A stretch of 64,000 nucleotides of DNA from Paracyclopina nana (taxonomy: Eukaryota > Arthropoda > Copepoda > Cyclopoida > Cyclopettidae): the NCBI GenBank assembly GCA_019096065.1, contig JAGUCH010000002.1, positions 8,568,501 to 8,632,500 on the forward strand. Direction: 5' to 3'. Position 1 is the first letter of the stretch, and each line of letters starts with the position of its first letter. Shown here one piece after another: positions 21,177 through 55,725 of the stretch. The notes beneath the pieces were generated by a model. The model was given only the letters and a program-made list of their open reading frames with translations, was not told where the DNA came from and did not search any database. The translations under genes were made by a program, and so were the position numbers.

Positions 21177-22072
21177 CCTACTAAAAGGCACACAATGCCC
21201 ACAATTGGCACACAATGCCCACAACACCCACAAGGCACACAACCGGCACACAATTACTAAAAGGCACACATTTAGTTAAAAAAATAAAAATTAAATGAAT
21301 CCTCAAAGAAAGTTAGAAAGTGGTTGCCTGTTTCTAGCTTAGCAATGTTCCAAATATAAAAGTACCTTCTTAAAAATACAAGGAATCACAACTTAGCTAA
21401 TATTATTTAACATTAGATAATTTGATGCAGCTTCCAAAAATGTAAATACGAATTTTCTGACTTTGCTTTGCACACAATGATGGCACACATTGGAACACAA
21501 TGGCACACAACAGCACACAACGGCACACAATGGACACAATGGAAAGTGGTTGCCTGTTTTTAGCTTAGCTGTGTGCCAAATATGAAATTGGCCTTTAAAA
21601 TTATAAAGAATAATAATTTGGCTCTTATTATTTAACAAAAAATAAAGATAATTTGGGAGAGCTTCCAAAAATGTAAACAGAATAATGTTCGACCTTGCTT
21701 AGCTTTGATGATGCCAAAATTCGGGCAATTACCGCCTAATCCAATGTTATGAACATCCCAAGCACATGATCTAATTTGTTTTTTTGTTTTTTTACTCCAT
21801 GTGTGCCTTTTAGTAATTGTGTGCCATCATGGCACACAATGGCACACAACGGCACACAATGGAAAGTGGTTGCCTGTTTTTGGCTTAGCTGTGTGTCAAA
21901 TATGAAATTAGCCTTTAAAATTAATATTGCCCAAATTTTTGCATTGTCTCAGCAATGCAGAGTCAGTAAATTAAAGTGTTTACATTTGAAAGCAATTTTC
22001 ATGCTGGGTACACAACATTCACACAAATGTCTTTGCAGTAATTGCCCGAATTTTGAAATTATCTCAGCTAAG

Positions 22073-22650
22073 TGGTCACAAAAGTGGTCACAAAAGTGGT
22101 CACAAAAGTGGTCACAAAAGTAGTCACAAAAGTTTTCACAAAAGTGGTCACAAAAGTGGTCACAAAAGTGGTCACAAAAGTGGTCACAAAAGTGGTCACA
22201 AAAGTGGTCACAAAAGTGGTCACAAAAGTGGTCACAAAAGTGGTCACAAAAGTGGTCACAAAAGTGGTCACAAAAGTGGTCACAAAAGTGGTCACAAAAG
22301 TGGTCACAAAAGTGGTCACAAAAGTGGTCACAAAAGTGGTCACAAAAGTGGTCACAAAAGTGGTCACAAAAGTGGTCACAAAAGTGGTCACAAAAGTGGT
22401 CACAAAAGTGGTCACAAAAGTGGTCACAAAAGTGGTCACAAAGTGGTCACAAAAGTGGTCACAAAAGTGGTCACAAAAGTGGTCACAAAAGTGGTCACAA
22501 AAGTGGTCACAAAAGTGGTCACAAAAGTGGTCACAAAAGTGGTCACAAAAGTGGTCACAAAAGTGGTCACAAAAGTGGTCACAAAAGTGGTCACAAAAGT
22601 GGTCATAAAAGTGGTCACAAAAGTGGTCACAAAAGTGGTCACAAAAGTGC
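22073..22650. repeat. 12-bp satellite, about 48 tandem copies
   Basis: Near-perfect array of the unit GTGGTCACAAAA. Only a few variants are seen: agtagtcac and agttttcac near the left end, gtggtcata near the right end, and one copy short by one A at about 22440, which shifts the register by 11 bp. Because 12 is divisible by 3 and no stop arises, several frames stay open on both strands and give artificial SGHK, VVTK, WSQK and TTFV repeats. I do not regard these as genes. Confidence 0.95.
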
Positions 22651-26600: not shown

Positions 26601-26765
26601 ATTAAGGAAAAGAGTCAAAAAGTACCAGGCATGACTTGATGATGTAAGATGGTGTAACAAGGCTTGTAATATGATACCTTAGAAAGATTTGATGGAATCC
26701 GGAAAAAGAGAAGATTTATGACATCCATTTTTAAGCCTCTAACTACATACAAACAGTGTGAGGAC
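23623..26765. other. 3.1-kb AT-rich region without a recognisable gene
   Basis: Several short open frames but none with protein-like composition. About 24100-24700 has weakly repetitive segments around the phrase 'atccaaggac', perhaps an old degenerate tandem repeat. Otherwise I see nothing assignable. The last few hundred bases would be the 3' UTR of TRIT1. Confidence 0.5.
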
Positions 26766-28581
26766 TCATGTTTGCTTGGAAAATGAAACTCGCAACGAAT
26801 ATGCTTTGAGGCTTTCAATCACTTTTTCTGTCGCAGCAGTCTCAGTGTCCGACGTCCATTTGGAAACAAAGTCCAAAACTACCTCGTCTTCATCTTCGGC
26901 CCTAGTCAGTACAGCTTTGATCTCGTGCAGAGGTAAAGCTGTGGCTTCCCGCAAGATCTTCATGGTTGCAGTTAAGTCCTCGCTGCGGCCTCTGAGGCCT
27001 TTTTCTGCCAGATGAATACGCATCCTGAGGGAGGGTTGACTACAATGGCTTTTTAAACTTTTTTTCGCTCTTGACACCAACAGTTTGTGCCTCTTGCTCT
27101 TCATGTGCACATCGAATTGAAGCTTGCCCTTCAAATCGAGAGAGCAGACATCGCATCTGTACATTTTTCGGCTTTCCTCGTAGCCGTAAGCGTCAGTAGT
27201 GGCAGCTAGCGGCTTCTGTTCGAGTCTTTGCAAATCATGGTCGAGATAGGCCTCCACCACTCGAATGGCTGGATTCAGAACTGCCGTTTCCCATTTTGAA
27301 GGATCAGTGGAATCGAATCCATACACGAATGGGCATTCACGATCGGCCGAGCTCCGGAGAAACCTCTGACGGATCCATTTGGTTTGTTTTCGAGCGTATT
27401 GTCGGGTGTGCAGCATCATCTGCTCCTTTCCCCTTTCAAATAGTGCTTCGCCGTCTTTTGATTGCTGCTCTTCACTGTTGAGAACCAGGTAATCATGGAA
27501 CTCCTTGAATCCGATCGATTGGAAAATGCCCACAGTGTAGTCCGCTATCTCATCTCCACGCTTCTTGTTGTAATCCTAAAATCGTTCTATGCACTTTATT
27601 GCCCAAAATAGACTAGAAGAATTACTACCTTGTGAAAATCCTGCAATTCCCTGAGGAGACCATTGGCAATCATTGTATCTACGCGCTTGTCGCATCGTTT
27701 ATCAAGCACTTCTTGGTCGCATTGCACCCAAAGGATGGCTAATTGGTCATGGGGGAACCGTAGAGGGCCTCCTAGAAGACCCCCAGTTCCCGACTCAGGC
27801 CTTTGCTCGCGCAAAATTTCGCTGTGCTTCTTCCCCTCCTTACCAAATACTGCAGCACAACAAAAGCAATTAATAACGGCTCTAAATCCTGATAAGACAT
27901 TAATGCCTTTAATGTGCAACTTACCTTCCAGTGACCGTAGAATTTTACGCCTTTCGTTGGGATGCAGCATAGCAGCTCGCTCAGGGTCGACATCCTTAAG
28001 ACGCTCATAAAGCTGAGCACTAGTCATATCATCGCCGTCGTCATCATCATTGACCACTTTGGCCCTTTTTGAGATTGGCTTCGTCGTGTCAGCGGAGAAG
28101 TCAAGGTTCACCAAAACCTTCCAAAGTAAGCTCTCAATGTAATAGTTAGTTCCTCCGCAAATGACTGGCATCACGTTGCGCCGCAGCATCTCGTCAACGA
28201 TCGGCAAGGCCTAAAGAAAAGGGTGTCGGTTTTTAACAAGGGAATACGTTGCGAGGGAAATGGAGTGGGAAGAGATAAAAAAAAAGTGCATTATGCACAA
28301 CGTCTGGCGGAAAGTGCATTCAGTACCTGATTCCTGAAGTCGACCACCGTGGAACGAAGCAGTGGATCCTGGAAGTCGATTAGGTGGTGCCTGACAAGTT
28401 TCCTCTCGTCTTCAGTCACCTTATTGGTCACTATGTCAAGTCCCCTGTACATTTGCATGGCATCAGCGCTGATTACCTCACCTCCATATTTCTGGGCTAT
28501 TTCCAGGGCTAATTTGGACTTGCCGGATCCGGTGGCCCCAATGACCACAATGATGGGCACTTTGCGTGCAGCCGCGGCCAT
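26766..28581 (-). CDS. TRIT1: tRNA dimethylallyltransferase (TRIT1/MiaA type), 4 exons, 523 aa
   Basis: Transfers an isopentenyl group to N6 of A37 in tRNAs (i6A) in cytosol and mitochondria. Exons: 28327-28581, 27925-28210, 27629-27849, 26766-27575; phases fit. P-loop GATGSGKS at residues 15-22; family motifs SADAMQMYRGLDIVTNKVT and HHLIDF; CGGTNYYIESLLW; LHPNERRKILRSLE; LDKRCDKRVDTMIANGLLRE; GIFQSIGFKEFHDYL; and YARKQTKWIRQRF. A matrin-type C2H2 zinc finger (CDVC...H-x5-H, about residues 395-417), typical of eukaryotic TRIT1, is followed by a roughly 100-residue extension. No clear mitochondrial presequence. It is the last cistron of a same-strand cluster: its ATG (context ATCATGG) lies 5 nt after the stop of the kinase gene. 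Confidence 0.95.
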
Positions 28582-28586
28582 GATGA

Positions 28587-29300
28587 TTAGGATGACAGAT
28601 GTTTGAGCAAACAGTCCAAAATAAGCTTGGCTGCAGTAATAAAGTTAGCTTCGAGAGGCTCCCGACCGTCTATGTAGTGGATGCAGCTTTTCTTCTTAAG
28701 GCTATCTAAATTGGCTTCGTAAGAGGGCCACACAGTAGTAGCAAAATATCCTGGAGGATCTGGAGGATTGTAGGTCCGTTGATTGCGCCTCTCCCAGCAA
28801 CTCGCTTGATCGAGGGTCAAAAATAGCCGCAAATCACAAATACTGAACAAAGCCTCGTTCTCAAAGAGCGTGATGCCTTCAACGAGCAGCAAAAGAGGAG
28901 CCTTTAGACTGACACTTTCGAATAGTTGAGCACCAAAAGGAGAAAGTTCGGCCTTTGAGGTTATGAGGCTTTGAAGGGTTGCTGGCGAGTCAAGAGCTCG
29001 AGCGAGACTTGAAATTTCTGCCCTCTGTTGGTTTGGCTCACTTCTTATCTGGTGGGTGATGAGTTTGGCAGATTCTACTGCCTTTGATAGTTTTTTGTTG
29101 TCAAAGGCTGTCTCCAGTTCCCAGTTGAAGTGGGTAAAGCCAGGAACTTTCACATGACCTGGATAGTCTTCAGGGAAGTAAAAGTCGTCCTGATTGAATT
29201 TCTTCGCGTTGAAACACTGCGACAACAATCGAGTGAGGGTTGTTTTCCCACTACACGTGGCACCGCTTATGCCAATCACCAAAATCTGATTACCAGACAT
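28587..29300 (-). CDS. NMRK1: Nicotinamide riboside kinase (237 aa)
   Basis: Phosphorylates nicotinamide riboside to NMN, a salvage route to NAD+. Single uninterrupted frame. P-loop GATCSGKT at residues 13-20. This is followed by FNQDDFYFPEDY (substrate-binding Asp region of the NRK family), FTHFNWELETAFD, the hydrophobic strand LLLLVEGITLFENEAL, then LRLFLTLDQASCWERRNQRTY and YNPPDPPGYFATTVWPSYE, a near-signature for NRKs. Slightly longer than human NMRK1 (199 aa), with an insertion after the DFYFPED helix region. ATG lies 6 nt after the DPM2 stop; its own stop lies 5 nt before the TRIT1 ATG. Its Kozak context (TCCATG) is weak. Confidence 0.92.
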   Translation of the reverse strand: MSGNQILVIGISGATCSGKTTLTRLLSQCFNAKKFNQDDFYFPEDYPGHVKVPGFTHFNWELETAFDNKKLSKAVESAKLITHQIRSEPNQQRAEISSLARALDSPATLQSLITSKAELSPFGAQLFESVSLKAPLLLLVEGITLFENEALFSICDLRLFLTLDQASCWERRNQRTYNPPDPPGYFATTVWPSYEANLDSLKKKSCIHYIDGREPLEANFITAAKLILDCLLKHLSS

Positions 29301-29306
29301 GGAAAT

Positions 29307-29576
29307 CTATTTCAAACGTCCATTGCTCTCCTCCCGAGCTCTATCAATGTTCACTAGCTGATAAGCTCTAATCAGGAGGAATAGGAAAAGTGAGCTGCCA
29401 ACCACGGAGGGGATGATTAAAGCCACTTCGACCGGAGGAAAAAACCTGGCCACAGCGGCCTTGTGTTCTGCATCCACAAAAGGCAACACAATCACCCACA
29501 GTGTGTAGTACGCAAAAAATAGCGAAGTCACTGATAATACAATCTTCCCTAGAAGGCGGTTCTCGATCCAAATCAT
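29307..29576 (-). CDS. DPM2: Dolichol-phosphate mannosyltransferase subunit 2 (89 aa)
   Basis: Small ER membrane regulatory subunit that stabilises the DPM1/DPM3 complex, which makes Dol-P-Man for N-glycans, GPI anchors and O-mannosylation. Two hydrophobic helices: LGKIVLSVTSLFFAYYTLWV with VLPFVDAEH just after it, matching the family core 'YYTxWVIxLPFxDxxH', and VALIIPSVVGSSLFLFLLIR. A short basic tail follows. Length equals the human protein (84 aa) plus a few residues. Single exon. The ATG follows the stop codon of the upstream AROS gene by 3 nt (TAG ATA ATG), in a different register only by virtue of the stop. Confidence 0.93.
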   Translation of the reverse strand: MIWIENRLLGKIVLSVTSLFFAYYTLWVIVLPFVDAEHKAAVARFFPPVEVALIIPSVVGSSLFLFLLIRAYQLVNIDRAREESNGRLK

Positions 29577-29579
29577 TAT

Positions 29580-30080
29580 CTACTCGTCTTCTCCAAAATC
29601 GGAATGAGCAGCCGTCTTCTTTTTCTTCCCCTTTGGCTTGGCAATCGGCTCCGAATGAGCGAAATATTCCTGGCTGAATTTCTCGAAATCCTGGTCAGAA
29701 AAGGCAGTTGTTTCCTGAGCTGGCTTTGATTTCTTTGCTGGTGGTTTGAGTAGATTTCTCCCCTTGGGCTCGTAATACCTTTTTGAGGACTCAATTTGCT
29801 GAAGAATAGGGTCAGTGGGCAGCCTATTCAAACTGGAGGCTTCGGACAACTTCAACAACTTTTCCACGTTAGCTCGAATTTTCTCTTTCTTTTGTGACTC
29901 TGCACTTTCTTGAGAAGTCTTGAACGCCTTGTTCAACTCCTCGACTGTGGAATTTGGCCTATAACGCTGTTTCGACAGCCTCTTCTTTGAAGATTTTTCT
30001 CCTACTCGGCCTCCGTATCTCTGGTCAAGAGCCTCAAGTTCAGATTTCAACTCCGATCGTAACAGTGCAGACGACATCAT
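29580..30080 (-). CDS. RPS19BP1: RPS19-binding protein 1 / active regulator of SIRT1 (AROS), 166 aa
   Basis: Small nucleolar protein that binds ribosomal protein S19 and, in mammals, the NAD-dependent deacetylase SIRT1. Matches to the family: N-terminal SSALLRSELKSELEAL; a lysine-rich KKRLSKQRYRP; the central VEELNKAFKTSQE and IRANVEKLLKL; and the C-terminal signature FSDQDFEKFSQEYFAHSE (human 'FTEEDFQKFQQEYF'). The tail is Lys-rich then acidic (SDFGEDE). Single exon, tandem Met start at 30080/30077. A short upstream ORF (ATG TTC GCG TTG GGC ATA TGA) lies just 5'. First cistron of the cluster; its promoter would lie in 30081-30550. Confidence 0.85.
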   Translation of the reverse strand: MMSSALLRSELKSELEALDQRYGGRVGEKSSKKRLSKQRYRPNSTVEELNKAFKTSQESAESQKKEKIRANVEKLLKLSEASSLNRLPTDPILQQIESSKRYYEPKGRNLLKPPAKKSKPAQETTAFSDQDFEKFSQEYFAHSEPIAKPKGKKKKTAAHSDFGEDE

Positions 30081-30555: not shown

Positions 30556-31335
30556 TACAGTCAACCGATCGCACATAAAACTACAAAACAGTGCGCACGT
30601 CAGACTACAAAGATTTTTGGCCTAGAATGTAAACAACCCCAACCGCACATGAATCTACATACAACTATTCGCACATGAACTATAAATTACGGAAACGAAC
30701 ACTAAACTGCGATAAAATGCATTATTGAATTTACCAACAGAATCCACTGTGCGAAATTTTGGCGTTTTTAACTCTCTTAGTTTATTAAGTAATTAGAAGA
30801 ATCTGCTAATTTATTTTGTAATCTCTGATCATTCTATAGCAGTCAATAATATGGGTAAAATTCTGCTTTTTCAATCTATTAGTACATTTTGGACTATTTG
30901 GTTTTTTTGGACTTTTAGGCTTTTTTTGGACTTTTTGGTCTTTTCACTATTTTTAGTTTTTTAATCTTTTAGGACTTTTTGGAATATTTGGACTTTTTGG
31001 AATATTTGGACTTTTTGGAATATTTGGACTTTTTGGAATATTTGGACTTTTTGGAATAATTGTTTGTGCCAAATTGTGGGAATTGTGTGCCTTTTATGAG
31101 GTCCCTTTTTTCAAAAGTGCATTTAGTCAAATGTAGTTTCCTGTGCAAATCATCTGTGTTCCTTTTGCTAACAGCTTTTTATGTAGGTTCATGTGCGTAT
31201 CTGCTAAATGTAGCTTGAGTGCGCTTGGTTCAGTGTAGGTCCATATGCGGTTGGTTTAGTAAAAAAAAGTTTTGTAGATCCATGTGCGCATCCGTTATTT
31301 GTAGTTTTGCGTGCGTTCTGTTTGTAGTTCCTGGT
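30556..31335. mobile_element. Imperfect inverted-repeat element with clustered short repeats
   Basis: The left part (30560-30690) repeats a degenerate unit like 'cgcacatgaatctaca'. The right part (31120-31320) carries several inverted copies like 'tgtaggttcatgtgcg'. Between them lie T-rich DNA and a short 18-bp satellite. No ORF. Architecture resembles the larger foldback element at 21-23.6 kb. Ends and target duplication are not resolved. Confidence 0.45.
30972..31058. repeat. 18-bp tandem repeat, about 5 copies
   Basis: Nearly perfect repeats of GGACTTTTTGGAATATTT, preceded by degenerate 'ttttggactttt' variants from about 30890. Confidence 0.9.
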
Positions 31336-35800: not shown

Positions 35801-36191
35801 GGGGACGTTAACTTAAGACCGGAAAATCAAAAAGTGGGATTTGCTCAGGACTGGTTATACTTAGACCAATGAAACTTTGCATACAGATAGGTTATGGGAT
35901 CATAAAAAGCTTTCACAAAAAACTTTTTCAGAATCTATCATAACTTAAGAAAAAAATTAAATCAACATTTCGTGAGTTTTTCTCACTGAACAAGAGATGG
36001 CTGTGCTATGCAGAAACAATACTGCCCTCTATAGCCAGCGCAAGAACTAAAAACCATAACAAAGTAGCTGAGCAACTGCTTGGCCGGGTAGTAAGCAGCA
36101 GCAGCTGTAGTGAAAAAGTGAAATAAGTGAAAATTATTTGGGAAAAATGGATCAGGAATCTCTGCTAATGTACTTGACGAAGACGAGCTAG

Positions 36192-37856
36192 ACGGCCTCA
36201 GAAACGTCAGGGATTGCTGCCAAAGACAAGTACTTGACAAAGACAAGTACATGACAAAGACAAGCTTGACGGACTCAGAAACGCCTGGGATTGCTGCAAA
36301 AGACAAGTACTTGACCAAGACAAGCTAGACTGCTTCGTAACGTCAGTGATCCTTGCTTTAGACAGGTACTTGTCCAAGACAAGCCAAACGGCCTCAGAAA
36401 CGTCAGGGATTGCTGCAAAAGACAAGTACTTGACCAAGACAAGCTAGACTGCTTCGTAAATGTCAGTGATCCCTGCTTAAGACAGGTACCTGTCCAAGAC
36501 AAGCTAAACGGCCTCAGAAACGTCAGGGATTGCTGCCAAAGACAAGTACTTGACCAAGACCAGCTAGACTACTTCGGAAACGTCAGTGATCCCTGCTTAA
36601 GACAGGTACCTGTCCAAGACAAGCTAAACGGCCTCAGAAACGTCAGGGATTGCTGCAAAAGACAAGTACTTGACCAAGACCTGCTAGACTGCTTCGTAAA
36701 CGTCAGTGATCCCTGCTTAAAACAGGTACCTGTCCAAGACAAGCTAAACTGCCTCAGAAACGTCAGGGATTGCTGCCAAAGACAAGTACCAAGACCTGCT
36801 AGACTGCTTCGGAAACGTCAGTGATCCCTGCTTAAAACAGGTACCTGTCCAAGACAAGCTAAACGGCCTCAGAAACGTCAGGGATTGCTGCTAAAGACAA
36901 GTACTTGACCAAGACAAGTACTTGACAAAGACAAGCTTGACTGACTCAGAAACGCCAGGGATTGCTGCAAAAGACAAGTACTTGACCAAGACAAGCTAGA
37001 CTGCTTCGTAACGTCAGTAATCCCTGCTTAAGACAGGTACTTGTCCAAGACAAGCTTTACGGTCTCAGAAACGTCAGGGATTGCTGCCAAAGACAAGTAC
37101 TTGACCAAGACCAGCTAGACTGCTTCGTAACGTCAGTGATCCTTGCTTAAGACAGGTACTTGTCCAAGACAAGCTAAACGGCATCAGAAACGTCAGGGAT
37201 TGCTGCCAATGATAAGTACTTGACCAAGACCAGCTAGACTGCTTCGTAAATGTCAGTGATCCCTGCTTAAGACAGGTACCTGTCCAAGACAAGCTAAACG
37301 GCCTCAGAAACGTCAGGGATTGCTGCCAAAGACAAGTACCAAGACCTGCTAGACTGCTTCGGAAACGTCAGTGATCCCTGCTTAAAACAGGTACCTGTCC
37401 AAGACAAGCTAAACGGCCTCAGAAACGTCAGGGATTGCTGCTAAAGACAAGTACTTGACCAAGACAAGTACTTGACTAAGACAAGCTTGACGGACTCAGA
37501 AACGCCAGGGATTGCTGCAAAAGACAAGTACTTGACCAAGACAAGCTAGACTGCTTCGTAACGTCAGTAATCCCTGCTTAAGACAGGTACTTGTCCAAGA
37601 CAAGCTTGACGGACTCAGAAACGCCAGGGATTGCTGCCAAAGACAAGTACTTGACCAAGACCTGCTAGACTGCTTCGTAAATGTCAGTGATCCCTGCTTG
37701 AGACAGGTACCTGTCCAAGACAAGCTAAACGGACTCAGAAACGTCAGGGATTGCTGCTAAAGACAAGTACTTGACCAAGACCAGCTAGACTGCTTCGTAA
37801 ATGTCAGTGATCCTTGCTCAAGACAGGTACCTGTCCAAGACAAGCTAAACGGCCTT
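36192..37856. repeat. Higher-order minisatellite, about 119-bp unit, about 14 copies
   Basis: Each unit is two related halves of about 60 bp. Half A contains 'cctcagaaacgtcagggattgctg', a 'gacaagtacttgaccaag' block and 'agctaga'. Half B contains 'cttcgtaa(a)cgtcagtgatccctg', a 'gacaggtacctgtccaag' block and 'agctaaa'. The A and B halves share the acgtcag / gacaagctagac skeleton. Some units are shortened (for example 36788 and 37340) or fused. The open frames across it are artefacts of the repeat. Confidence 0.9.
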
Positions 37857-40515: not shown

Positions 40516-40980
40516 CTTTTATTTTTACAAATTTGAGGTTTGATTGTGTTTTAAGATACTTTTATAGTAAACACAGCCCCATCTCGTAAGGCTATTCTTG
40601 ACGGAACAAAGAGACATTAAATCACGAAATCTGTTCGTCATTACTGCGGTGGCGCTGCTATCACTAAAAGAGGGAACTAAAGAAGAAAGTAATGCAGATA
40701 CTGGAGCTAATGATTTCTAATATCATTCCCTTAGAATTTTTCATTTTAAAATGCTATTTTAGCTTGGTTATGATTATCAATTTATAATATAATCAACTTT
40801 GACTTCAATGACATTGGATTTTCTAGCCCAGGCTTCAAAAACAGAAATGGCGGCTATCAGCATCTTTGCTACTTTTCTCATTTACTCCTTTAAATCCAAA
40901 ATTGCTAATTTTGCTGAAATTGATTTGTTTTGATGTGAGTGCTGCCAGATTGTTTTTACTTCTCAAAAGCTCTCGATTTT

Positions 40981-41594
40981 TGTTGAAGTCCTCTATGCCC
41001 GGTGATGGCCTCGGCGTCCTCGAAGAGAACTATGACAGCCTCAGAGGAAACTTCAAAAGAGAAAGGCCGCTTCCACAGCGAATCCTCCACAACTCCACGA
41101 TGGTTGGTCTGCCAAGGGAGTTCAAAAGGTCCTGGTCCAATCCTCAATGCTCCAGGATGGGAGCAAAAGTATGCAATATGTCCCCTGTAACTTCTTCTTC
41201 TGAGTGTGAGAGACCAATAAAAGAGACAATAGAACAAGATGCTTGTCCTCTACAGCTAGATCATGAAATAAAATGCATACATGAGCCAGATTTCTCCAGC
41301 TAGAGACTAAACCCTGACTTCTATGACTTCCTGACTACCTGGACAGCTTTAGCAGTCCTTGAATGAGCCCTTCTGACTCTACAAAAGACAATAAAGACAA
41401 ACTTGACACTATAACTTGACTAGACTACATAAAATAAACTAAGACTAAAAATTGCACAAAAAATTGACTTCTTATTCAAGCAAACATTATTCTCACACTG
41501 ATACAAAATTCAACTTGGCGCTGAGATGACGAGGCTTCGGCGATGATGGAGGCGACGCAGCTGCGCTGAGGCGCAGCCGTTGCGGCCCGCAACA
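40981..41594 (-). repeat. 3' LTR of the BEL/Pao element
   Basis: 614 bp, same sequence as the 5' LTR as far as I can compare by eye. Short frames within it occur identically in both copies and are not genes. Confidence 0.93.
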
Positions 41595-41606
41595 AAGTCC
41601 CCCCTT
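41595..41606 (-). promoter_or_regulatory. Polypurine tract
   Basis: AAGGGGGGACTT on the element's strand abuts the 3' LTR; expected plus-strand priming site. Confidence 0.8.
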
Positions 41607-41641
41607 GGAGGTCGCGGCCTCGACAAGCCTTTCGGCGCCAG

Positions 41642-44600
41642 TTAGGGCCAAGATGAGGCCATGGGGAGAGAGCGATCCTCCAAGACGTATTCGTCCCTCA
41701 AACCTCGCTCGAAGACCTCGTCCACACGATTATACGGGATCAGGTCGATGCGCCCGTCGGTGTCGTAGCACATCTCGATGTCGAAAGCCCCGAAATATTT
41801 TAAGCCCTTGAGGCTCATCGCCGTTGCGACCGTGGCTTCCTCCACTAGCCTTGCCCACGGGATCATCCCATACTTGGAGTCGAAGTGATGATCAGAATGA
41901 TGCCCGATCTCATCGCAAAAGGCGCAAACCTTGAGCACGCGGCCGCACGCCATAACAGTGTGGCCGTCCTCGTCGCAAGTGGGAAGGGCACAGTGGAGCG
42001 GAGCGGTGCAGGTTGCCTCCAGGTGATCAAGGCTGCCGCACTTAGCGCAGTAGTGTGGGCAGCTTCTTCCAATGGTGCGCTTGATCAAGGCGTAGGCAAG
42101 GTGGCTGAAGTTAGCCCGGTGGGGAGGCTTGCCAAGCAGGCAAGTGAAGGCTTTCGCCAGACGGCTGTCCACGTTGTGGAGGTCAATCCGGTACGGCCTG
42201 CCCATCCTCCAGTACCTGCGCGTCGCTTTCGGGCTGTTGACGCTCATGGCGGAGGCGGCCTCGAGAAACAGGAACTCGGCCTTAATCTGGTCTTCCTCGA
42301 ACATCGTGCCGCCCTTGATCCAGTCGCTCCTATTTAGAGGCTGGAAATCGCGGCCTCCTCGACGCAGTTGTCCCACGCCACCTCTCTCGCGCACTCGGTC
42401 ACACAGCAGATGAGCGTGCCTCCAGACATCGGCTTTGCCAGAGTAGCCATGCCTGACGAGGCCCTTGACCGTGGTGTAAATCACCAAACCGATGGCGGCC
42501 ACGTGCTGCAACCAGAGAAAGTGGTGCATGTCATCCGTCCAGTCACAAGGGTCGCGGGAGAAGTCCATCGTCCTCTTGTTGGCCTCGAAGACTCGTTGGT
42601 CCGGATGAAGGGGCGGGAGCGGTGACAATTTCTTGCCTTTCATCCTCGGGACTCTGTGGAGGCCAATTCGACCTGCCACATACGTCAAGCCGGTGTGAGG
42701 CTGATCCAGCTCTTCCTGGGGGAAGGCCACCAAGGCCAAGACGTTGGCATCCACTCGGCCGCGAACCTTCCAGCCAAGTTGCTCGAAGCGGCACTCGTCC
42801 ATCACGTTGAACCCCACGACCCGAATCTTCTCGTCGGCGAGCATATCCAGGACGACCTGAGGCACTGCCGCCCCAAACTTCCGGCCGTTGCTGCCCTCGC
42901 TCAGTCCGTGGACGACCAGCAAATGGCCCTTGACGCCGAAAGTGACGGCTGTGTAACAGCCTTCGGGTGATTTGCGGCACCCTTTCGGGATCAGGCCTCT
43001 GGCCTCCAAAGCCTCGTAGGTCCACGGCTCAAAGTGGCAAGTCATCACTCCTCCGCCGTCGGCTGCACGGAAAAAGCCGGCCTTTTTCAGCCTGGCTTCC
43101 ACAGACGGCCACTGCGAGTCTCGAGTCAGGTGGAACACCGACTTGCCTCCCCTTGCACGACTATCAAGGGGCCCCTGGCCGAAATCGACGTCCTCCTGGG
43201 CGTCCTCCAAGGCATAGACGTCGTAGCAGTTGCTGCCCCCGTGTCTTCTCTGTATTTCCAAGAGGAACGGCGGCTCCGGCATGTGGGAGAGGCATGCCTC
43301 ACGCGGGCAATCGACCTCGACTTTGCCCTCTAAGTGAGCCTGGGCAGCCATACAAGGAGGGTCGTCCGTAGGTTTCCCCGTGGCCTCGATAGGAATCCAG
43401 AAGGATGCTTGGGGCAGCTCTCCATATTGAGGGTCGACCTCGATGTCGGACGCGAGATGATCGCGGCCTTCGGCATCTCCACCGTGCTTCGCGAAGCTGC
43501 GCCAATAGCGCTCCACGAACTCTGGAACACTGGCCTCGGTGATTTGACCTCCATAACAGGCCAAGATGGAGGCTATTCCGACATCAGTGGTCTCCGATAT
43601 GGCTCCTTTCATCTTGCTTCCATAAAAGGAGCGAGCCAACGACTTCCGAAGCTGCCAGGATTCCCAGGCCGACTGCCTGGCCTCGCCGATCAAGGGCGGG
43701 GGATTGAAGGCCTTTTGGCCACTCCTCCCGGCTACCAACGTTTGTTTGTCGTAGGCGTCATACACGTCAAACAATTTTTCGTGGCAGCACTTCATGACGG
43801 TCTTGGGGGTGTAACCCATGGCCAGCAGGGCCACCCTGGTGGCGTCGTGCTTTTCAGCCACGACGCAAGCGATCGCTCGCTGCTCCTCGGTCCGAAATTC
43901 CTTGACTCCACGAGGCCCATAGTCCATGGAGTGAGCCAGGAAGGACACCTTGGGGTCGGCATAGTGCTCCATGATCACGGGCGCGGTCATGACGCCCAAG
44001 ACTTGGTCCTCGCACAGCATCAGCCTGGCTCCGTGGGCAGCCCGAATGCCGCGAATGGCCTCCTCGATGTCCAGCAGCCTTTCGGCGTAGTGGTTGGGAA
44101 ACTCGCCTGAAATTATGAGGCCAACACGGTCAACTATGACGCTCGATATGCATGAAGATTTTTGACTAGAAACTGAAGCTGTCGACACCCCGACTTCGAC
44201 TGCAGGCCCAGCAGCGGCCTCATTTATGGTAGAGGCCGTAAGGTCTAATCTAGGGGCCTTATGACGATTCTCAGGTAGCGGGGTGGACTGCATTCGTCTT
44301 TTGACAGCGGGCGAGACTTTTCCCCGGGCATTGACATCGCGGGCGGCTGAAGCAGAGGGGCTGAGCGGGTCGTCATCCAGTAGCGCAAAATCAGCCTCGT
44401 CCACGCAAACTCCCTCCCATTCCATGTCATCCCTACTGCCTAATAGCTCAGCTGTCGCGGAGTCATCCTGATCTACTAGGAGAGCTTGACCCTCCAAACT
44501 TGCCCCTTCCTGCCTACCGCTAAAACTATGTTTACCTCGAGATAATGTTTGGCCTCGAAGCAAACTTTCGTCTTTCGACGGCTGGCTGGCTCCAGTGGCA

Positions 44601-45820
44601 TCCAACGGCTCGATGGGCGGCGGCAACCCGCTAGGAGCGTCCGCCATCTCCACGTCGTTCGGCGGTCCTTCAGGCTCTTCTTGGAAGCTGAGGTTGATCA
44701 ACGGAGTATCCGGGTCCCCCATCGCTGGAGACGCGCCAAACCCGACCAAATTTCCCGTCGGGGCGTCGGTGAGAAGGTCGACGACCACTCCGTCGTCCGC
44801 GACCTCGGACACGGCCTCCACGCTGCGGTGGCTCGGAGCATCCACCTCGGCAAGTTGAGCCAACGAGACGTCGGGGTTGTTGGCCGCGCTGCCGGCCTCG
44901 GCCACTTCGACGAACGGGGAGAAGCCCACGATCTTCCTGGTGGTCGCTCCACCCTCCAAATCGATCCTCCTGGCCTCCCAGGCGGCCTCCCGCAAAGTTT
45001 GCGGACCCACCGTTGGCGTTGAAGACCGAACCGCGGATGAGCCGTCGATCGGCGGCTTGGGCGTCGGCGGCCTCGAAGTCAGCGAGGAGCGCAGCACTCC
45101 GCGGAAACTCGGCGGAGGTCCAGGCCCTGGCCTCACCGCAGGTCCAAGGGGGACTCGAGGTGGCGGCGGCGTGGCCGACCTCAAAAAGGTCGACGGCTTG
45201 GGAGGCCTCTCCGGCGACATGGAGCGCGACCTCGGAGGTACGGCTCGAACGCCGATCGGTCCGTACGGCCCCATGATGGCTACGCCCACGGACACATAAG
45301 GTTGCGCCCTTACTGCGCGCGAATCCTCGAGCACGGCGGCCGTGTTCGTCAAGGCAGCCTCCAACCCTAGGACGAGTTCTTCGTCGGTGAGGGAGGACGC
45401 GAGAGCCTTCACAGCGGACATTGCAAAGTTCACAATTACACTTGGTGCAAAATTCACGGTTTCACGCTGATCTCGTATCGATTTCTCGAAAAACTGACTG
45501 AGAATTCTCAGCTTGGAGAACTGCCGGAAAAGGATGCTGAGAGACCGCACTGGTTCAGCTGCCGTCTCTCTTGCCGCTAGGTTGCGGGGAAAAGCCGCGT
45601 TCTTTCCGCAATTTGACGAGTTTTCGTAAAAGCGTAAATAAAAACAACTACGCATCATCAGCTGCCGACTGTTGTGATCGGCCTCTGACCTCGTAAGACT
45701 TCTAAAAATTGTGCCTTTTTCGGCAGGATTACTCGTTGCGAGTAACCAAGTCAACCTTTTTAAAAGAGTGACTTTAGTCAATTTGTTAAAAGTGAGACTC
45801 ACAGTTGGGACAAGGTGCAT
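41642..45820 (-). CDS. BEL/Pao second ORF: zinc-knuckle protein with RNase D-like segment
   Basis: Stop-free frame of 1,392 codons whose first ATG overlaps the end of gag-pol by 22 nt. The first about 133 codons look non-coding and the GC content jumps at Met 45421 (MSAVKALASSLTDEELVLGL), so the real protein may be 1,259 aa. From that Met: Pro/Ser-rich N-terminal third; a globular middle. About residues 800-930 resemble a DEDD 3'-5' exonuclease fold (VVLDMLADEKIRVVGFNVMD, then FEQLGWKVRGRVDANVLAL, then LTYVAGRIGL), but the first DxE motif is not visible. A CCHC knuckle (C-x2-C-x4-H-x4-C) and further Cys/His clusters follow near 1,125-1,180. No signal peptide or transmembrane segment, so it is not an envelope gene. 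Its role is unknown; RNA binding is the safe inference. Confidence 0.8.
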   Translation of the reverse strand: MHLVPTVSLTFNKLTKVTLLKRLTWLLATSNPAEKGTIFRSLTRSEADHNSRQLMMRSCFYLRFYENSSNCGKNAAFPRNLAARETAAEPVRSLSILFRQFSKLRILSQFFEKSIRDQRETVNFAPSVIVNFAMSAVKALASSLTDEELVLGLEAALTNTAAVLEDSRAVRAQPYVSVGVAIMGPYGPIGVRAVPPRSRSMSPERPPKPSTFLRSATPPPPRVPLGPAVRPGPGPPPSFRGVLRSSLTSRPPTPKPPIDGSSAVRSSTPTVGPQTLREAAWEARRIDLEGGATTRKIVGFSPFVEVAEAGSAANNPDVSLAQLAEVDAPSHRSVEAVSEVADDGVVVDLLTDAPTGNLVGFGASPAMGDPDTPLINLSFQEEPEGPPNDVEMADAPSGLPPPIEPLDATGASQPSKDESLLRGQTLSRGKHSFSGRQEGASLEGQALLVDQDDSATAELLGSRDDMEWEGVCVDEADFALLDDDPLSPSASAARDVNARGKVSPAVKRRMQSTPLPENRHKAPRLDLTASTINEAAAGPAVEVGVSTASVSSQKSSCISSVIVDRVGLIISGEFPNHYAERLLDIEEAIRGIRAAHGARLMLCEDQVLGVMTAPVIMEHYADPKVSFLAHSMDYGPRGVKEFRTEEQRAIACVVAEKHDATRVALLAMGYTPKTVMKCCHEKLFDVYDAYDKQTLVAGRSGQKAFNPPPLIGEARQSAWESWQLRKSLARSFYGSKMKGAISETTDVGIASILACYGGQITEASVPEFVERYWRSFAKHGGDAEGRDHLASDIEVDPQYGELPQASFWIPIEATGKPTDDPPCMAAQAHLEGKVEVDCPREACLSHMPEPPFLLEIQRRHGGSNCYDVYALEDAQEDVDFGQGPLDSRARGGKSVFHLTRDSQWPSVEARLKKAGFFRAADGGGVMTCHFEPWTYEALEARGLIPKGCRKSPEGCYTAVTFGVKGHLLVVHGLSEGSNGRKFGAAVPQVVLDMLADEKIRVVGFNVMDECRFEQLGWKVRGRVDANVLALVAFPQEELDQPHTGLTYVAGRIGLHRVPRMKGKKLSPLPPLHPDQRVFEANKRTMDFSRDPCDWTDDMHHFLWLQHVAAIGLVIYTTVKGLVRHGYSGKADVWRHAHLLCDRVRERGGVGQLRRGGRDFQPLNRSDWIKGGTMFEEDQIKAEFLFLEAASAMSVNSPKATRRYWRMGRPYRIDLHNVDSRLAKAFTCLLGKPPHRANFSHLAYALIKRTIGRSCPHYCAKCGSLDHLEATCTAPLHCALPTCDEDGHTVMACGRVLKVCAFCDEIGHHSDHHFDSKYGMIPWARLVEEATVATAMSLKGLKYFGAFDIEMCYDTDGRIDLIPYNRVDEVFERGLRDEYVLEDRSLPMASSWP

Positions 45821-48800
45821 AGCCCCGCGAACACGGTCTCCAGTTTGTCTTCGTGTTCGCCATTTGTACAGGCTCTTGTTTCCTTTTTCTTGACCTTTCC
45901 CTGGATTTTTCTCTTTTCAGAGCTCTCAGTGGCCAGGGAAGTACCACGCGATTTCAGATCCGGCTCCAGCTTGGCGAGATGCAAGGCCAAAGAATCTTGC
46001 GTTTGCAGTTCTTGCTGCAATCGTTCCAGATCAGCCCAACCTTCATCAGACCGCAGTTCTTGAAGCTTAGGAGCTTCCTTCCACCTGTTTCTGGGCCACT
46101 TGATCATCTGGTCCGACTCTCTGAAGACCTCCAAAGGTATTAAATCCTGCGTGGCTCTCTCGTAGATAACAGGCAGTTTTTCTTCCTCTTTAGGTCCTGG
46201 TGGGATCATCTTGACGAAAGCTCGCCTTACTTCGCCATCCTGGTCGGGAACGACCTTTTCTATGATTCCGAGAGGCCAGTAATAGCGCCTTTCGGCCATT
46301 CGTTGGTCGAGCACAGCCACCACGTCCCCCTTTCGGAGGGTTTCTCGATATTGCGTCCACTTAGGCATCTTTTTGAGCTTTGTGATGAGCTCTTCAGCAA
46401 AAAATTCCCACATGCGCTGCAGCACAGCGTCCAATAATGCGTATCTCTTTTCTAGAGTCTGAATGGCTGCCTTGTCAATCACGGGCAAGGCGTCACCGGG
46501 AGGCCCTCGGGTCAGGAAGTGGTTAGGCGTGACAAAGTGCCCGTCCACTTCTCCTATTGGTCGTCCATTGACGAACCCTTCGGCTTTGATCATGATGTAA
46601 CGAAAATCTTCTACAGGAGTGACCTTTCGGTAAAACTCTCTGTAGAAAGCTCGCTTGAAGATCTTAATCCCGGCCTCCGCGAGACCGTTGAAATGCGGGG
46701 CCCAGGGGGGGGATAGAGACCACTCGACGATCCCGATGTGACCTCCAAACTGTCGTACTCGATCCCAGTCAACGGTGAGAAGTCTTTCTTTGAGTTCTGA
46801 GTAGCGTGGATTACTTCGAAGGTCTTCCCGACAGCCGATGAAATTGGACCCGTTGTCTGACCTCAGCGCATAAGGGCAGCCTCTTCGGGATACAAAAAGC
46901 TCAATAGCGCGCATGAGAGATTCGGAAGATATGTCAACCACTTCCTCGCAATGAATGGCCTTGCTGTGAGCGCAGATGAATACGATTACATACATCTTGT
47001 AGCTATCCCGACCAAAAGTGGTGGAGAAGGGCCCACACATATCGACACTGGTATAACGGAAGGGCAAAAACTCTGTGATGGGTATGGCGTGCGGGGGAAG
47101 AAGGCCCATGTGAGGAGGGGCCTGCTTGGCAACCCACCTGACGCACATAGCGCATTCCTTGAGGATGGTCCTAATGACATTCTTGGCGCCAGGTAACCAG
47201 TAATTTTTCTGAGCCTCAGTCAAGTATCGGTTCCGCCCATAGCCGTGCCCGAGTTCCTGATGGACATCTTGCAAGATCAATCTACGAGCATACCCTGGCA
47301 CAATGAGCTGACGCCTTCCAACCCAAACTGCTGTGGTGGCGTCCAATCTTCCCTTGGTGCGGATTTCTCCATTGGCGCCAATGTAAGGATCCAATGGTCC
47401 TAATTTGGAGCCCTTCGGCCACTCTCCACTGGCCAGGAAAGAATCAATCTCAGGGCCGTACGCATTTTGTTGGATCCACAAGACTAACAATTCTTCGACC
47501 CTTTCGAACTCAGTGGTTCCAGCTCGACCTGTTGGAATTTCTTCCCAAGGCTTGTCTTCCTTGAGCTTAAACCTTTCGGCCACACAAAGGGCGCGAACCA
47601 TTCTTTTCCACGAGGAAAAATCCTCCATTTTTACGGGACAAGGGCTCACCCGCGCTTGCGTCCAAGCTTCTACCACGTCAGCGGAAGGCCTCAGATATTC
47701 GGGGATGGTGTACCTGCCGAGTTGCTCGAATGTGGCCAGCATGACTAATTTCTTTACCGCTTTCTTTCCAGCCTTGATGGTGGCGCCTGGTACCTTACGA
47801 AGTTTCATGTACCCATCGATGGCGGCCTTTTCATCGTCTGTCACTGTGGGCACCCATTTTGGCCAATCCTTTTCAGGTCCTCTTAGAAAGGCTGGACCGT
47901 GAAGCCAAGTGTCGCTCGAGGCCAGCTCCTCAATGGACATTCCACGAGTGATATAGTCGGCCACATTGACCCTGCCAGGTACGTGCTTCCACAAGTGCTT
48001 TTGGGTCGAGTCAAAGATTGCTGTGACTCTCCTAGCTACATAGCCTCGCCAGTTTCCTGCAGGCTTGCATATCCAGGTTAGCGCACACTGGGAGTCAGTC
48101 CATAGTGTGACGCTATCCACGTGCTCCAAGGACTTTTCCAAATCAAAGCACAGCTCGGAGCCGAGCACGCATCCATTCAACTCCATTTCTGGCATCGAGC
48201 GAATCTGACGAAGTGATGCCAAGTTCAATCGAGCTGCCATAAGCACGCAGTCGACTCCGCCTCCTGGATAAACTGACCTTATGTATGCTGAGGCTCCCTT
48301 GGCGACCTCGCTGGCATCGGTGAAGATGTGCATTTCTACCCGCTCGGCAAACCTGCATCGGACGGCCCTGGGCAGACGGAACAACTCAATGGCTTTCACC
48401 TGCCTGACGTAATCTCGCCATTCCTTGAGGATCTCTTCCATCTCCGGATGATCCACCATTTCCAGGGCAGTATCCCATTCGATTTCGAACAGCATTTTGA
48501 GCTGCCAAACCCGCTGTATGAGCCTTTTCCCTTTCAGGATGAATGGCGACAGAAGATTCAATGGATCATGCAAACGAGGTACGAATTGTGCCATCATCCT
48601 CATCGTAAGAGGTGCTTGGCACATGAACTCTGCGTCCGGAGGTTGGAACACGATTTGGTCTCCGATGCAGTCGACGTACATCCCCAGTGCTTTGGTGACA
48701 TCGGCGTCCTCCGCTTGAACTTGAAATCCGGGTAAGATTAGATCTTGGTCCACATCAAATAACGCTTCTGGGCAGCTACTGCCCCATTTGCGGAATGGCA

Positions 48801-51800
48801 TCGATCCGGCCTCGCCCACTTCTAGGATCTGCTTAATGGCCTCTTTGGCCTCTCCGGCGTCCTCTACGGATGCAAAAACGTCGTCAACATATAAAAACTT
48901 GTCGAGGATCCGAAAGGCCTGAGGATGCGAGTCCTGAAACTTAGAGATGTGGTGTTTCATCGCAAATGTGGCCATGCAGGGTGCGGAGGCCGTCCCAAAA
49001 ACCACCGAGGTTGCCTCATAATGCACTCCTTGCCAGATGAAGCGGTGGTAAGGTCTGGATGCTGGGTCGAGTTTGAAGCGCAAGAACATTTTCGATATGT
49101 CAGCGACAAGCATGACTGGCTTTTCGCGAGCTCCTACCAGAATTTCAAACACGTTGCGTTGTAGTTTGGGCCCTGGCAATAGAGCATCATTGAGGCTTTT
49201 GCCGTAGTGCTTTCGCGCCCCATCGAACACGACTCTTACTGGCATCGACGGTTTGTCCGGCCTTTCGACCAACAGCCAGTCCAGGTAATTACAATCTTCA
49301 TCTAAGTTATCAACAAGAGGGTCGAGTACTCTTATGAAACCCAACCTAAGCCATTCTAGAATTTCTTCCGTGGCTTTGTTATAGGTCTCCTCATCGTAAA
49401 GAAAAAGCTTCCTCTCCAAGCAGGCAGTCGACTTCAGGACCCTCAACCTGTTGCAGGTGAACCGTGGCTCGCCGTCCTTCCACATTGGGCTCATTTGATA
49501 AGATCTGTCGCTCAGCTGGGTTATAGTATTGACCAAGATATCGAGGGCCTTTTGATCATTTATGCTGAGGGTGGGAGCCTCTTCCACCTGAGGGCGGTCA
49601 AACTCCCACATGGCTTGAAGACTCTCAATAGGCGGACCAGACTTTTGATGACACTGGTCGCACACCATCACTCCCGGTGGTTCCTGGCTTTCCCAGTCTC
49701 GAGTTGACGCCATGGCGGCGAATGCGACGACTTTTTCCTTGCCACTTTGGCCAGCAGTCGGGTCATAATAGGTAAGAACCTTTCCCAGTTCACATTCATA
49801 GACGTAAGGCTCACCGTCCTTGTGATGCAGGACTTTGGTGGGCATGATGAGGTTAAAGCAGTCAAGTCCCAATAAAATGTCTGGGTGCGGGTTTCTGGCA
49901 TACGTCGGCAAGTCAAAATCTTTCAAATTTTTGAATTTTTGCTTTAACTTGTGAATCGGAGGCGTGTTAATCGATGAGGGCAGCTCTGTGAGGGTGTGTA
50001 CTGGTAGGTCATGATGCTTATCTCCCCCCACTGCTTTAACCCTCAGAGTGACCAACCTACTTGGCAAGTTTAGGGTCGTTGCGATCATTTTCAAAGTTTG
50101 ATCATCTTTGGGCCCTTTCAGGCCCAATTTCGTAGCTAGATTATCGGTGACCATTGACAATTGAGCCCCGGTGTCCAGGAAGGCATTCGCTTTTACGAAC
50201 TGCCCCGTTTCAGGGTTCGCAACCATGATAGGAACCACGCAAAAACTTAGCAAGCCTTCTTCTGCCGTTGCGAGGCAGTTGACATTTTCGTGGGGGGTTT
50301 CCAACTTAATGGGGTCGATTTCATCCCAGCCGTCAGGGTCCCTTTCAGGTAATGGCTCTGGTGCCATACACATGGCTTCATTGGGGTCCCCCGTGGCAAC
50401 GTTGGCGACGATTTTTGAGTTTTCAGATGTTAGAGGCTGATCGTATCCTGATCTGCCTCCCCCCTTTGCATTGGTGCTTTGCCCCGTGAAGAGGCTAGTT
50501 GTTGCAACCACTGGCTTTTTGACCATAAGCATCGCCACTCTTTTTTCAAGTTCTTCTAACCTTTCTTTTTGAGGATCTGATTCCTTTTTTGCAGGTTCCT
50601 TGTCTTTGTTCTTGGAGTTCCAGGCGTCATGGAGGAGATAGTGATGAGTTTTTGAGCCGCACTCTTTGCAAGTCCAGTTTTTGCGGCACTCGTATACGTT
50701 GTGTACTCCTCCCAGGCAACGGAAACACGCTTTGAAGTCTCTGGCCTTTTTCAGCCGACCCACCCCGTGCATTGCCAGTAGATGTGGACAATTGTACAGC
50801 ATGTGCTCGTTCGTGTCGCATTCGGGACATTTTGTGAAGTACCTTTGGTCTCCGCGAGCAACTGACATGATTGTGACAACTCCTCCTTCATCAATGACAG
50901 GTAACTCTTCCACTTCAAGTTCGACAGCGTGTATCATTTTAGGTGGTGGAGTTGTTGAGGCGTATGACGGTTGTGGTTGACTTAGCGTCGACTGTGATGC
51001 CATGTGGTTAAATGCGACTGGTTGAGGCCACTGGCGAACATCATTGTGAGGCGGCTCGTCAGGGTAGCGATCCTGATTGTCAGGTAGCGCATTCGACGCT
51101 TGAAAAGCGTGAACGTTTTTTGCTGCTGCCTTTTTTGATCTTTCAGCCCTAGCGGTCTTGCCATAGCCCTGGCATCTTTCGATGCGCTGGTGATGAGCGG
51201 TCCAGTCGCGAAACAACTGGAAGGTCATGTGGGTCCTCTTCTCCGTCATGAGCAATTGGTTCACCATTACCTGGGTCGAAGGGGTAAGTTTGAGACTTCT
51301 AAATATGGTGCTGTCTTGTATGTCGCCGTGGTAGCTTCCGGAGTTCAATAAATGCTTGTGGATGCGATTGATTAACTTTCTAGCATTCATTACATTCTCC
51401 GGATCCGCCATATCAAGAGGAGAGAGTTCAGCGAGCTCCTGCATGAAATAGTCGAACTGCAGCTTGTCATTGCCAAACTCCCTTTCGAGAGACTCCAAGG
51501 CGTCGTAATACCCGTCTTCGTCTTTCGGGAATTCATCGACTAGATCTCCAGCAGGTCCCCCTTGGGTGCTGTCGAGCAGGCGTGCCCACTTCTCGCTGAT
51601 GGACATGGCTGCATCGCCGTGCACGAAAGAGCGGAACCGCTCCTTGAATCGGTAATACTCAGTTGGGTGCCAACCGTCGAATTTGGGTATTTCTACCTGG
51701 GAAAGTTTTAGACTTGATTTCCCATAGTAGTTCCTTGGTTCCCAAGGGATGTATGGCCAGTCCTCTTCCGCGTTGCCCCTGTTCCTAAATTCTGCCTCGG

Positions 51801-55062: not shown

Positions 55063-55091
55063 GGACTCTTTACAGGATCAGGGGCTCGAAT

Positions 55092-55109
55092 GCCCCACGT
55101 TGGGCGCCA
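55092..55109 (-). promoter_or_regulatory. Primer-binding site for tRNA-Lys
   Basis: On the element's strand TGGCGCCCAACGTGGGGC follows the LTR end by 2 nt. It is complementary to the 3' end of tRNA-Lys(CTT) (acceptor CCA through ACGUUGGGCG), the same primer specificity known for tRNA-Lys1,2-primed retroelements. Confidence 0.88.
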
Positions 55110-55111
55110 CT

Positions 55112-55725
55112 TGTTGAAGTCCTCTATGCCCGGTGATGGCCTCGGCGTCCTCGAAGAGAACTATGACAGCCTCAGAGGAAACTTCAAAAGAGAAAGGCCG
55201 CTTCCACAGCGAATCCTCCACAACTCCACGATGGTTGGTCTGCCAAGGGAGTTCAAAAGGTCCTGGTCCAATCCTCAATGCTCCAGGATGGGAGCAAAAG
55301 TATGCAATATGTCCCCTGTAACTTCTTCTTCTGAGTGTGAGAGACCAATAAAAGAGACAATAGAACAAGATGCTTGTCCTCTACAGCTAGATCATGAAAT
55401 AAAATGCATACATGAGCCAGATTTCTCCAGCTAGAGACTAAACCCTGACTTCTATGACTTCCTGACTACCTGGACAGCTTTAGCAGTCCTTGAATGAGCC
55501 CTTCTGACTCTACAAAAGACAATAAAGACAAACTTGACACTATAACTTGACTAGACTACATAAAATAAACTAAGACTAAAAATTGCACAAAAAATTGACT
55601 TCTTATTCAAGCAAACATTATTCTCACACTGATACAAAATTCAACTTGGCGCTGAGATGACGAGGCTTCGGCGATGATGGAGGCGACGCAGCTGCGCTGA
55701 GGCGCAGCCGTTGCGGCCCGCAACA
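55112..55725 (-). repeat. 5' LTR of the BEL/Pao element
   Basis: 614 bp, TG...CA ends. The outer (U3 start) end contains two hairpin-forming palindromes: TTGCGGGCCGCAA, and GCTGCGC paired with GCGCAGC. The element's transcription would start within it; a TCAGTG motif on the minus strand at about 55620 could serve as initiator. Confidence 0.93.

Follow-up and report, generated by a model that had tools for sequence, protein, structure and literature searches.

A four-gene cluster with single-digit gaps and ATG-poor upstream cistrons in Paracyclopina nana: a candidate polycistronic message read by leaky scanning

Gene content of the locus

The 64,000-nucleotide stretch of the Paracyclopina nana genome analyzed here (the window; assembly GCA_019096065.1, contig JAGUCH010000002.1, positions 8,568,501 to 8,632,500) carries on its minus strand four intact, co-oriented genes that lie nearly end to end: homologues of AROS, DPM2, NMRK1 and TRIT1. 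A first-pass annotation had described the four as complete and separated by gaps of 3, 6 and 5 nucleotides (nt), and the open reading frames (ORFs), the Pfam and PDB matches and the splicing of TRIT1 all agree with that description. The sequence likewise bears out its statement that none of the gaps contains an AG and that the preceding stops are TAG, TAG and TAA. The features of the cluster are listed below in window coordinates (aa, amino acids).

29580..30080, minus strand: cistron 1, AROS (RPS19BP1) homologue; 166 aa, single ORF; Pfam AROS, 3.6e-9
29577..29579, minus strand: AROS-DPM2 gap; 3 nt, ATA, after a TAG stop
29307..29576, minus strand: cistron 2, DPM2 homologue; 89 aa, single ORF; Pfam DPM2, 1.8e-15
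29301..29306, minus strand: DPM2-NMRK1 gap; 6 nt, ATTTCC, after a TAG stop
28587..29300, minus strand: cistron 3, NMRK1 homologue; 237 aa, single ORF; PDB nicotinamide riboside kinase 1, 5.7e-20
28582..28586, minus strand: NMRK1-TRIT1 gap; 5 nt, TCATC, after a TAA stop
26766..28581, minus strand: cistron 4, TRIT1 homologue; 519 aa; Pfam IPPT in pieces plus a zinc finger
28581-28327, 28210-27925, 27849-27629 and 27575-26766, minus strand: TRIT1 exons
28326-28211, 27924-27850 and 27628-27576, minus strand: the three TRIT1 introns, all GT-AG

Once spliced, TRIT1 reads through its 519 aa with no interrupting stop. In sequence searches of the PDB, AROS matched the human AROS chain weakly and DPM2 found no relative at E values up to 1. 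Six-frame searches of the 92-Mb, 10-contig genome, judged on the best-scoring candidates, placed each of the four genes at one location only; thus, the genome most likely depends on this locus for all four functions. A comparison of the whole window with Rfam gave no match at the gathering threshold.

Three single-digit gaps in a row, all on one strand and between four conserved genes, cannot reasonably be ascribed to chance. As a sample we took 20 10-kb stretches in the first third of this contig, together with the window; it held 13 same-strand ORF pairs that scored as coding-like and were spaced by -8 to 40 nt, 3 of them those of the AROS-TRIT1 cluster. The upstream members of the other 10 pairs had 4 to 43 internal ATGs, and by eye these pairs resemble ORFs of mobile elements or zinc-finger arrays, or short weak ORFs.

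Depletion of ATG in the first three cistrons

AROS, DPM2 and NMRK1 together hold 3 internal ATGs in 1,482 nt, against 31.2 expected from control genes, and their proteins have no internal methionine (Met) except residue 2 of AROS, which comes from a doubled start (ATGATG). Beyond this doubled start, AROS has no ATG in any frame; the internal ATGs of DPM2 (two) and NMRK1 (one) are all out of frame. TRIT1, the last cistron, is normal in both ATG and Met content. When the trinucleotides between positions 30074 and 28582 were ranked against the numbers expected from dinucleotides, ATG was the most depleted of the 64, with 5 seen (the DPM2 and NMRK1 starts included) and 18.4 expected, and the antisense strand of the locus was ordinary (15 ATGs). 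The three residual ATGs open only short frames, read by eye:

29417..29473, minus strand: out-of-frame ATG in DPM2, opening an 18-codon ORF
29312..29323, minus strand: out-of-frame ATG where DPM2 ends; its ORF has 3 codons and a stop 11 nt before the NMRK1 start; context G at -3, G at +4
29150..29155, minus strand: sole out-of-frame ATG in NMRK1, with a stop directly after it (ATGTGA)

Synonymous shuffling, which holds the protein and the codon counts fixed, gave the three cistrons 7.7 expected out-of-frame ATGs against the 3 observed (p about 0.01). By gene, AROS had 0 against 2.1 (p 0.03) and NMRK1 had 1 against 3.8 (p 0.06), and the pieces of TRIT1 were above expectation. We also compared the cistrons with coding-like segments of their own size, drawn from 20 stretches of 10 kb plus the window after removal of tandem repeats and of the AROS-TRIT1 locus (mobile-element frames were included). 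None of 1,501 overlapping AROS-sized segments (60 stretches) was free of ATG, and none of 1,123 overlapping NMRK1-sized segments (40 stretches) had one ATG or fewer. Start-codon depletion ahead of the last ORF was found, then, for the three cistrons jointly and, against coding segments, for AROS and NMRK1, but not for DPM2 alone. A version of this control that included tandem repeats, in which 5% of AROS-sized and 6% of NMRK1-sized segments were as poor in ATG, was superseded: repeats in L006 and L007 score as coding and contain no ATG.

Tight gene pairs elsewhere in the genome

As a positive control in the same genome we chose MOCS2, a polycistronic pair known from flies. On contig 4, 6 nt without an AG separate MOCS2A (ThiS, 5.4e-14) from MOCS2B (MoaE, 2.2e-34), and MOCS2A has no internal Met. 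In Drosophila, Mocs2/CG42503 is named as a highly conserved polycistronic pair in the annotation account of FlyBase (PMC4528330).

The arrangement recurs among small genes. A survey of 17 loci selected by family (10 of the 17 LSM matches, 6 of 6 Tim and 1 of 1 CHCH) returned three clear tight pairs and one ambiguous one. The clear pairs are LSM2 and DIM1 (8.6e-67), 21 nt apart; TIM9 and TIM22 (Tim17 family, 1.2e-6, just below the curated cut-off), 16 nt apart; and a two-exon ORF of 79 aa followed 9 nt on by a TIM10-like gene. Families are from profile matches where these are given; the member names LSM2, TIM, SNRPF, NDOR1 and TP53RK are those we presume from the sequences.

In these pairs, too, the upstream cistrons are poor in ATG. 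Counted in all frames, ATG density per 100 nt ranged from 0 to 1.10 in the 7 upstream cistrons and from 1.16 to 3.16 in 13 controls, with no overlap and a thin margin (one-sided Mann-Whitney, 1.8e-4; 0.0019 without the AROS-TRIT1 locus), P values that treat genes as independent; the tight pairs were chosen by gap. The four upstream cistrons outside the AROS-TRIT1 locus have 8 ATGs against 22.6 expected (Poisson, 0.0004). The controls were five last cistrons and eight single small genes (L031, L033-L036, L039, L044 and L046), each read from first ATG to first stop, with possible intron read-through in L031 and an extra upstream start in L036; L032, L038, L042, L043 and L045, with an unclear start or single-exon structure, were left out. 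TRIT1 exon 3 was uncounted in this comparison, and the 79-aa ORF was taken as 240 nt, its true length being 237.

The neighborhoods of some of these genes hold further co-oriented ORFs. On contig 7 (L041:1474-2700), TIM9 is followed after 16 nt by TIM22, with AATAAA at the TIM22 stop, then by a strong acceptor and a third co-oriented gene, presumably NDOR1-like; the region looks like a tight bicistron inside an operon of the spliced-leader (SL) type. On the minus strand of L037, past the LSM2-like gene and DIM1 (both splicing factors), a third co-oriented ORF lies about 100 nt on with a modest acceptor (1.6, scored from a start one base off). On the minus strand of L030, the stop of an SNRPF-like gene abuts the ATG of a possible spliced ORF of 35 aa (TAAATG), and 3 nt beyond lies a gene that we take to be TP53RK-like. 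The SNRPF-like gene has 1 internal ATG in 240 nt; it was kept out of both groups because the next gene is preceded by AATAAA and an acceptor, which allow an SL-operon reading.

Homologues in other organisms

Protein searches recovered 9 homologues of NMRK1, 19 of DPM2 and 6 of AROS. The closest named relative of NMRK1, and the only named one of the 9, is from Tigriopus californicus (P0006, 40% identity). Five of the 9 (P0001-P0005) have 0 or 1 internal Met, and P0006 to P0009 have 2 to 4. None of five stretches of viral contigs that matched a search pattern encodes a relative of P0001.

The first-pass annotation had proposed synteny in related species as a check. The best NMRK1 and best DPM2 homologues are listed with the same longest contig (5,554 bases), as are a second NMRK1 and DPM2 pair, both of source 'ncbi' (4,595 bases). 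These equal figures are an indirect sign of DPM2-NMRK1 linkage in two further organisms, whose proteins are 37-74% identical; the 6 AROS homologues match neither figure.

A leaky-scanning model for the cluster

These observations suggest that AROS, DPM2, NMRK1 and TRIT1 are expressed from one polycistronic messenger RNA (mRNA) read by leaky scanning, perhaps helped by reinitiation, a reading to which we assign a probability of about two in three. In this model the locus would be transcribed as a single mRNA with all four cistrons, and small ribosomal subunits would scan it from the cap. Part of them would initiate at AROS and others would bypass its weak first start, reach the successive starts and finally arrive at the strong start of TRIT1. 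The first AROS ATG has C at -3 and the NMRK1 start T at -3, both weak, and the TRIT1 start has A at -3 and G at +4, a strong context; grades are from the -3 and +4 bases rather than from a start consensus of this genome. Because scanning subunits must cross the upstream coding sequences, selection would purge ATG from them, Met codons included. The few out-of-frame ATGs that remain open ORFs of 18, 3 and 1 codons, after which subunits could resume, and the single-digit distances from stop to start may contribute some reinitiation. Of the eight poly(A) hexamers tried, the first to occur after the AROS start is ATTAAA at 27913, within TRIT1 intron 2. A single signal for the whole message may lie past the last stop:

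26715..26720, minus strand: CATAAA, candidate single poly(A) signal about 45 nt past the TRIT1 stop

Several results weigh against this interpretation. Poverty in Met may have protein reasons: internal Met is absent from 6 of 6 AROS and 14 of 19 DPM2 homologues, so the amino-acid signal is weak for these two, and human AROS is not known to have internal Met either. DPM2 alone is not depleted, with 2 out-of-frame ATGs against 1.8 expected from synonymous shuffling, and 230 of 2,067 DPM2-sized coding-like segments are as poor in ATG as DPM2. The same shuffle ranks out-of-frame ATG third among depleted trinucleotides, behind TAA and ACC. Start contexts are mixed, with A at -3 for the DPM2 start and for the second AROS ATG, and an ATG in strong context (29323) stands just upstream of NMRK1. 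The TRIT1 introns lie far 3' of three stops and would invite nonsense-mediated decay if that process is splice-dependent here. Elsewhere in the genome, TIM9 retains 3 in-frame ATGs and MOCS2A 3 out-of-frame ones, and Snapin, dicistronic in flies, has no tight coding neighbor. Finally, none of the 6 AROS homologues carries the 5,554 or 4,595 figure, so that linkage of AROS was not seen in the relatives, and acceptor-like sites precede two of the starts, as described below.

Alternative explanations

SL trans-splicing, raised by the first-pass annotation, is the alternative that survives best, although we consider it unlikely and less likely than a polycistronic mRNA read by leaky scanning. The SL would cut the precursor at acceptors inside the upstream coding sequences, at the cost of the upstream 3' end, and alternative processing would give either mRNA. 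Two acceptor-like sites within 70 nt of a start agree with the annotation's proposal of cuts inside upstream coding sequence, one 49 nt before TRIT1 (score 4.1) and one 67 nt before NMRK1 (3.6). The first is the basis of this explanation:

28631..28650, minus strand: acceptor-like AGCTAACTTTATTACTGCAG inside NMRK1, 49 nt before the TRIT1 start

Equal or better acceptors within 70 nt occur at only 2.1% (4.1) and 3.5% (3.6) of coding positions, in a background that includes the AROS-TRIT1 locus itself, and the two scores are on par with those of real introns (3.4, 4.6, -3.4 and 6.1 for the introns of TRIT1 and TIM22). SL trans-splicing has, furthermore, been demonstrated in calanoid copepods, in an account that leaves open the presence of the SL in cyclopoids and harpacticoids (PMC4664967), and the only named relative of NMRK1 is from a copepod. 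The genome also has a junction like those of SL operons, with AATAAA at the TIM22 stop and an acceptor of 7.6 just before the next gene, a score reached by a fraction of 0.00 of coding positions.

Against these points, with no AG in any of the three gaps, the candidates in the cluster fall solely within upstream coding sequence, where use of the sites at 49 and 67 nt would shorten the upstream protein. The acceptor before DPM2 is a weak one (0.1, at 14 nt). At the seven tight junctions, 0.08-1.00 of coding positions match the best acceptor in the 25 nt before the start, and none of these acceptors stands clearly above the coding background. Nor was a poly(A) signal seen for each upstream gene: the eight hexamers tried do not occur before TRIT1 intron 2, though other variants could be present. 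Moreover, each mRNA would begin after its own acceptor, which leaves the loss of ATG unexplained. No SL RNA was seen in the three 5S ribosomal RNA (rRNA) stretches examined, a weak test. The genome may contain both SL-type and tight junctions; the tight ones lack a clear acceptor within 25 nt and the one after TIM22 has a strong one, which places the AROS-TRIT1 cluster with the tight kind.

Next in rank, and also improbable, is a polycistronic mRNA on which ribosomes get to the downstream cistrons through termination-reinitiation or internal entry, leaky scanning having a minor role. The first-pass annotation had named termination-reinitiation as the way in which a truly polycistronic mRNA would be read; we favor the polycistronic mRNA and not the mechanism in its pure form. 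Single-digit gaps at all three junctions suit reinitiation, the residual out-of-frame ATGs open ORFs of a length (1, 3 and 18 codons) that would permit it, and most dicistronic pairs of flies apparently fail the requirements of scanning, according to the FlyBase account (PMC4528330). Translating ribosomes should, however, mask internal ATGs, and strict termination-reinitiation would be indifferent to them, giving no cause for their scarcity in 7 upstream cistrons; the scarcity therefore points to leaky scanning. In addition, a prediction cited in a review holds that upstream ORFs of more than 55 codons prevent reinitiation (PMC4705651).

We consider it very unlikely that these are four separate genes with overlapping ends, their promoters within the upstream coding sequence, their poly(A) sites within the downstream one and their packing a product of genome compaction, for although this genome has other close gene neighbors and monocistronic transcripts are also frequent at polycistronic loci of flies (PMC4528330), the eight hexamers tried are absent upstream of TRIT1 intron 2 in the cluster, ATG scarcity confined to upstream cistrons would lack a cause, and several long repeat arrays in the window make any compaction local.

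Comparison with known polycistronic systems

The first-pass annotation regarded a four-gene set of this kind as unusual for an arthropod-like genome, a view that is softened by the Drosophila annotation, which counts 159 dicistronic, 7 tricistronic and 2 tetracistronic sets, the genes of the last not being named in its polycistronic section (Crosby et al., 2015, PMC4528330). As described there, the fly loci resemble the cluster in having conserved ORFs on one strand and a short distance from stop to start; this distance is -34 to 319 nt in exclusively polycistronic fly loci, a range that includes the 3, 6 and 5 nt of the cluster. With at least two separate same-strand ORFs that each encode a conserved protein, the cluster probably belongs to the polycistronic class.

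Depletion of start codons ahead of a downstream cistron has precedents. The dicistronic stoned and Snapin transcripts of Drosophila have AUG-poor first cistrons with a diverged start context, and leaky scanning is reportedly needed for translation of the downstream cistron (Wall, Phillips and Kelly, 2005, as cited in PMC11892635). These transcripts and the cluster are from arthropods and have AUG-deficient upstream cistrons; the fly transcripts have two cistrons, of different genes, and the cluster four. Bicistronic genes of green algae have a median observed/expected ATG ratio of 0.43-0.49 before ORF 2 (Duenas et al., PMC11291117/PMC11892635), and the cluster has 0.27 by a different, dinucleotide estimate. 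They share with it the depletion of ATG before the last ORF, the short spacing and, apparently, a conserved gene order; they have two ORFs where the cluster has four. The evidence differs in kind as well, for the FlyBase loci rest on transcripts (PMC4528330) and the algal genes on mutation tests in vivo, whereas the cluster is known from sequence alone, also in comparison with stoned/Snapin.

Like the SL operons of nematodes, Ciona and Oikopleura, among which many in Ciona have no intercistronic region (PMC7986045), the cluster sets unrelated co-oriented genes in tight rows. Unlike them, its gaps hold no acceptor, and only 3-6 nt separate each stop codon from the next start codon. One further animal message of interest is reportedly tricistronic and from an insect. 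Kanamori et al. (2010, as cited in PMC4705651) described it as a polycistronic metazoan mRNA with leaky scanning. In copepods and amphipods, operons and polycistronic mRNAs were stated to be unreported by a 2021 paper (PMC7986045), and our literature searches, which mostly left subscription journals outside their scope, found no prior report of such a locus among the papers listed. The cluster differs from the known polycistrons in its four serial, full-length, conserved cistrons, in the single-digit gap at every junction and in the signs that the arrangement is frequent in the genome.

Other features of the window and genome

Apart from the cluster, the window contains several repeats. An 18-bp tandem repeat (30876-31055) precedes the AROS start by about 800 bp, and long tandem arrays occupy 36170-37855 (60/120-bp units) and 22070-22649 (48 copies of a 12-bp unit). 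Positions 40956-55465 resemble a retroelement insertion, with two very long open stretches on the minus strand (1,424 and 3,092 codons) flanked by end segments that agree in all of their first 70 translated residues. Elsewhere in the genome, 5S rRNA arrays extend over positions 913544-939931 of contig 1; in one 1.1-kb stretch of them, the unit is about 470 bp long and includes a second 5S copy of lower score (97.6 against 111 bits).

Biological significance

Animal messages are taught as encoding one protein each. We propose, tentatively, that polycistronic messages may instead be an ordinary mode of expression for small conserved genes in this organism, with several percent or more of its genes in abutting sets of two to four that are read by scanning, with selection for unhindered passage depleting ATG, and so Met, in every member but the last. 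Functional partners may be paired in this way, as for TIM9 with TIM22, LSM2 with DIM1 and MOCS2A with MOCS2B. If the model of one mRNA read by leaky scanning is correct, scanning would be usable in an animal on the scale of a bacterial operon, and the mechanism of translation could shape the amino-acid composition of enzymes. The ATG signature provides a cheap genome-wide test for such loci.

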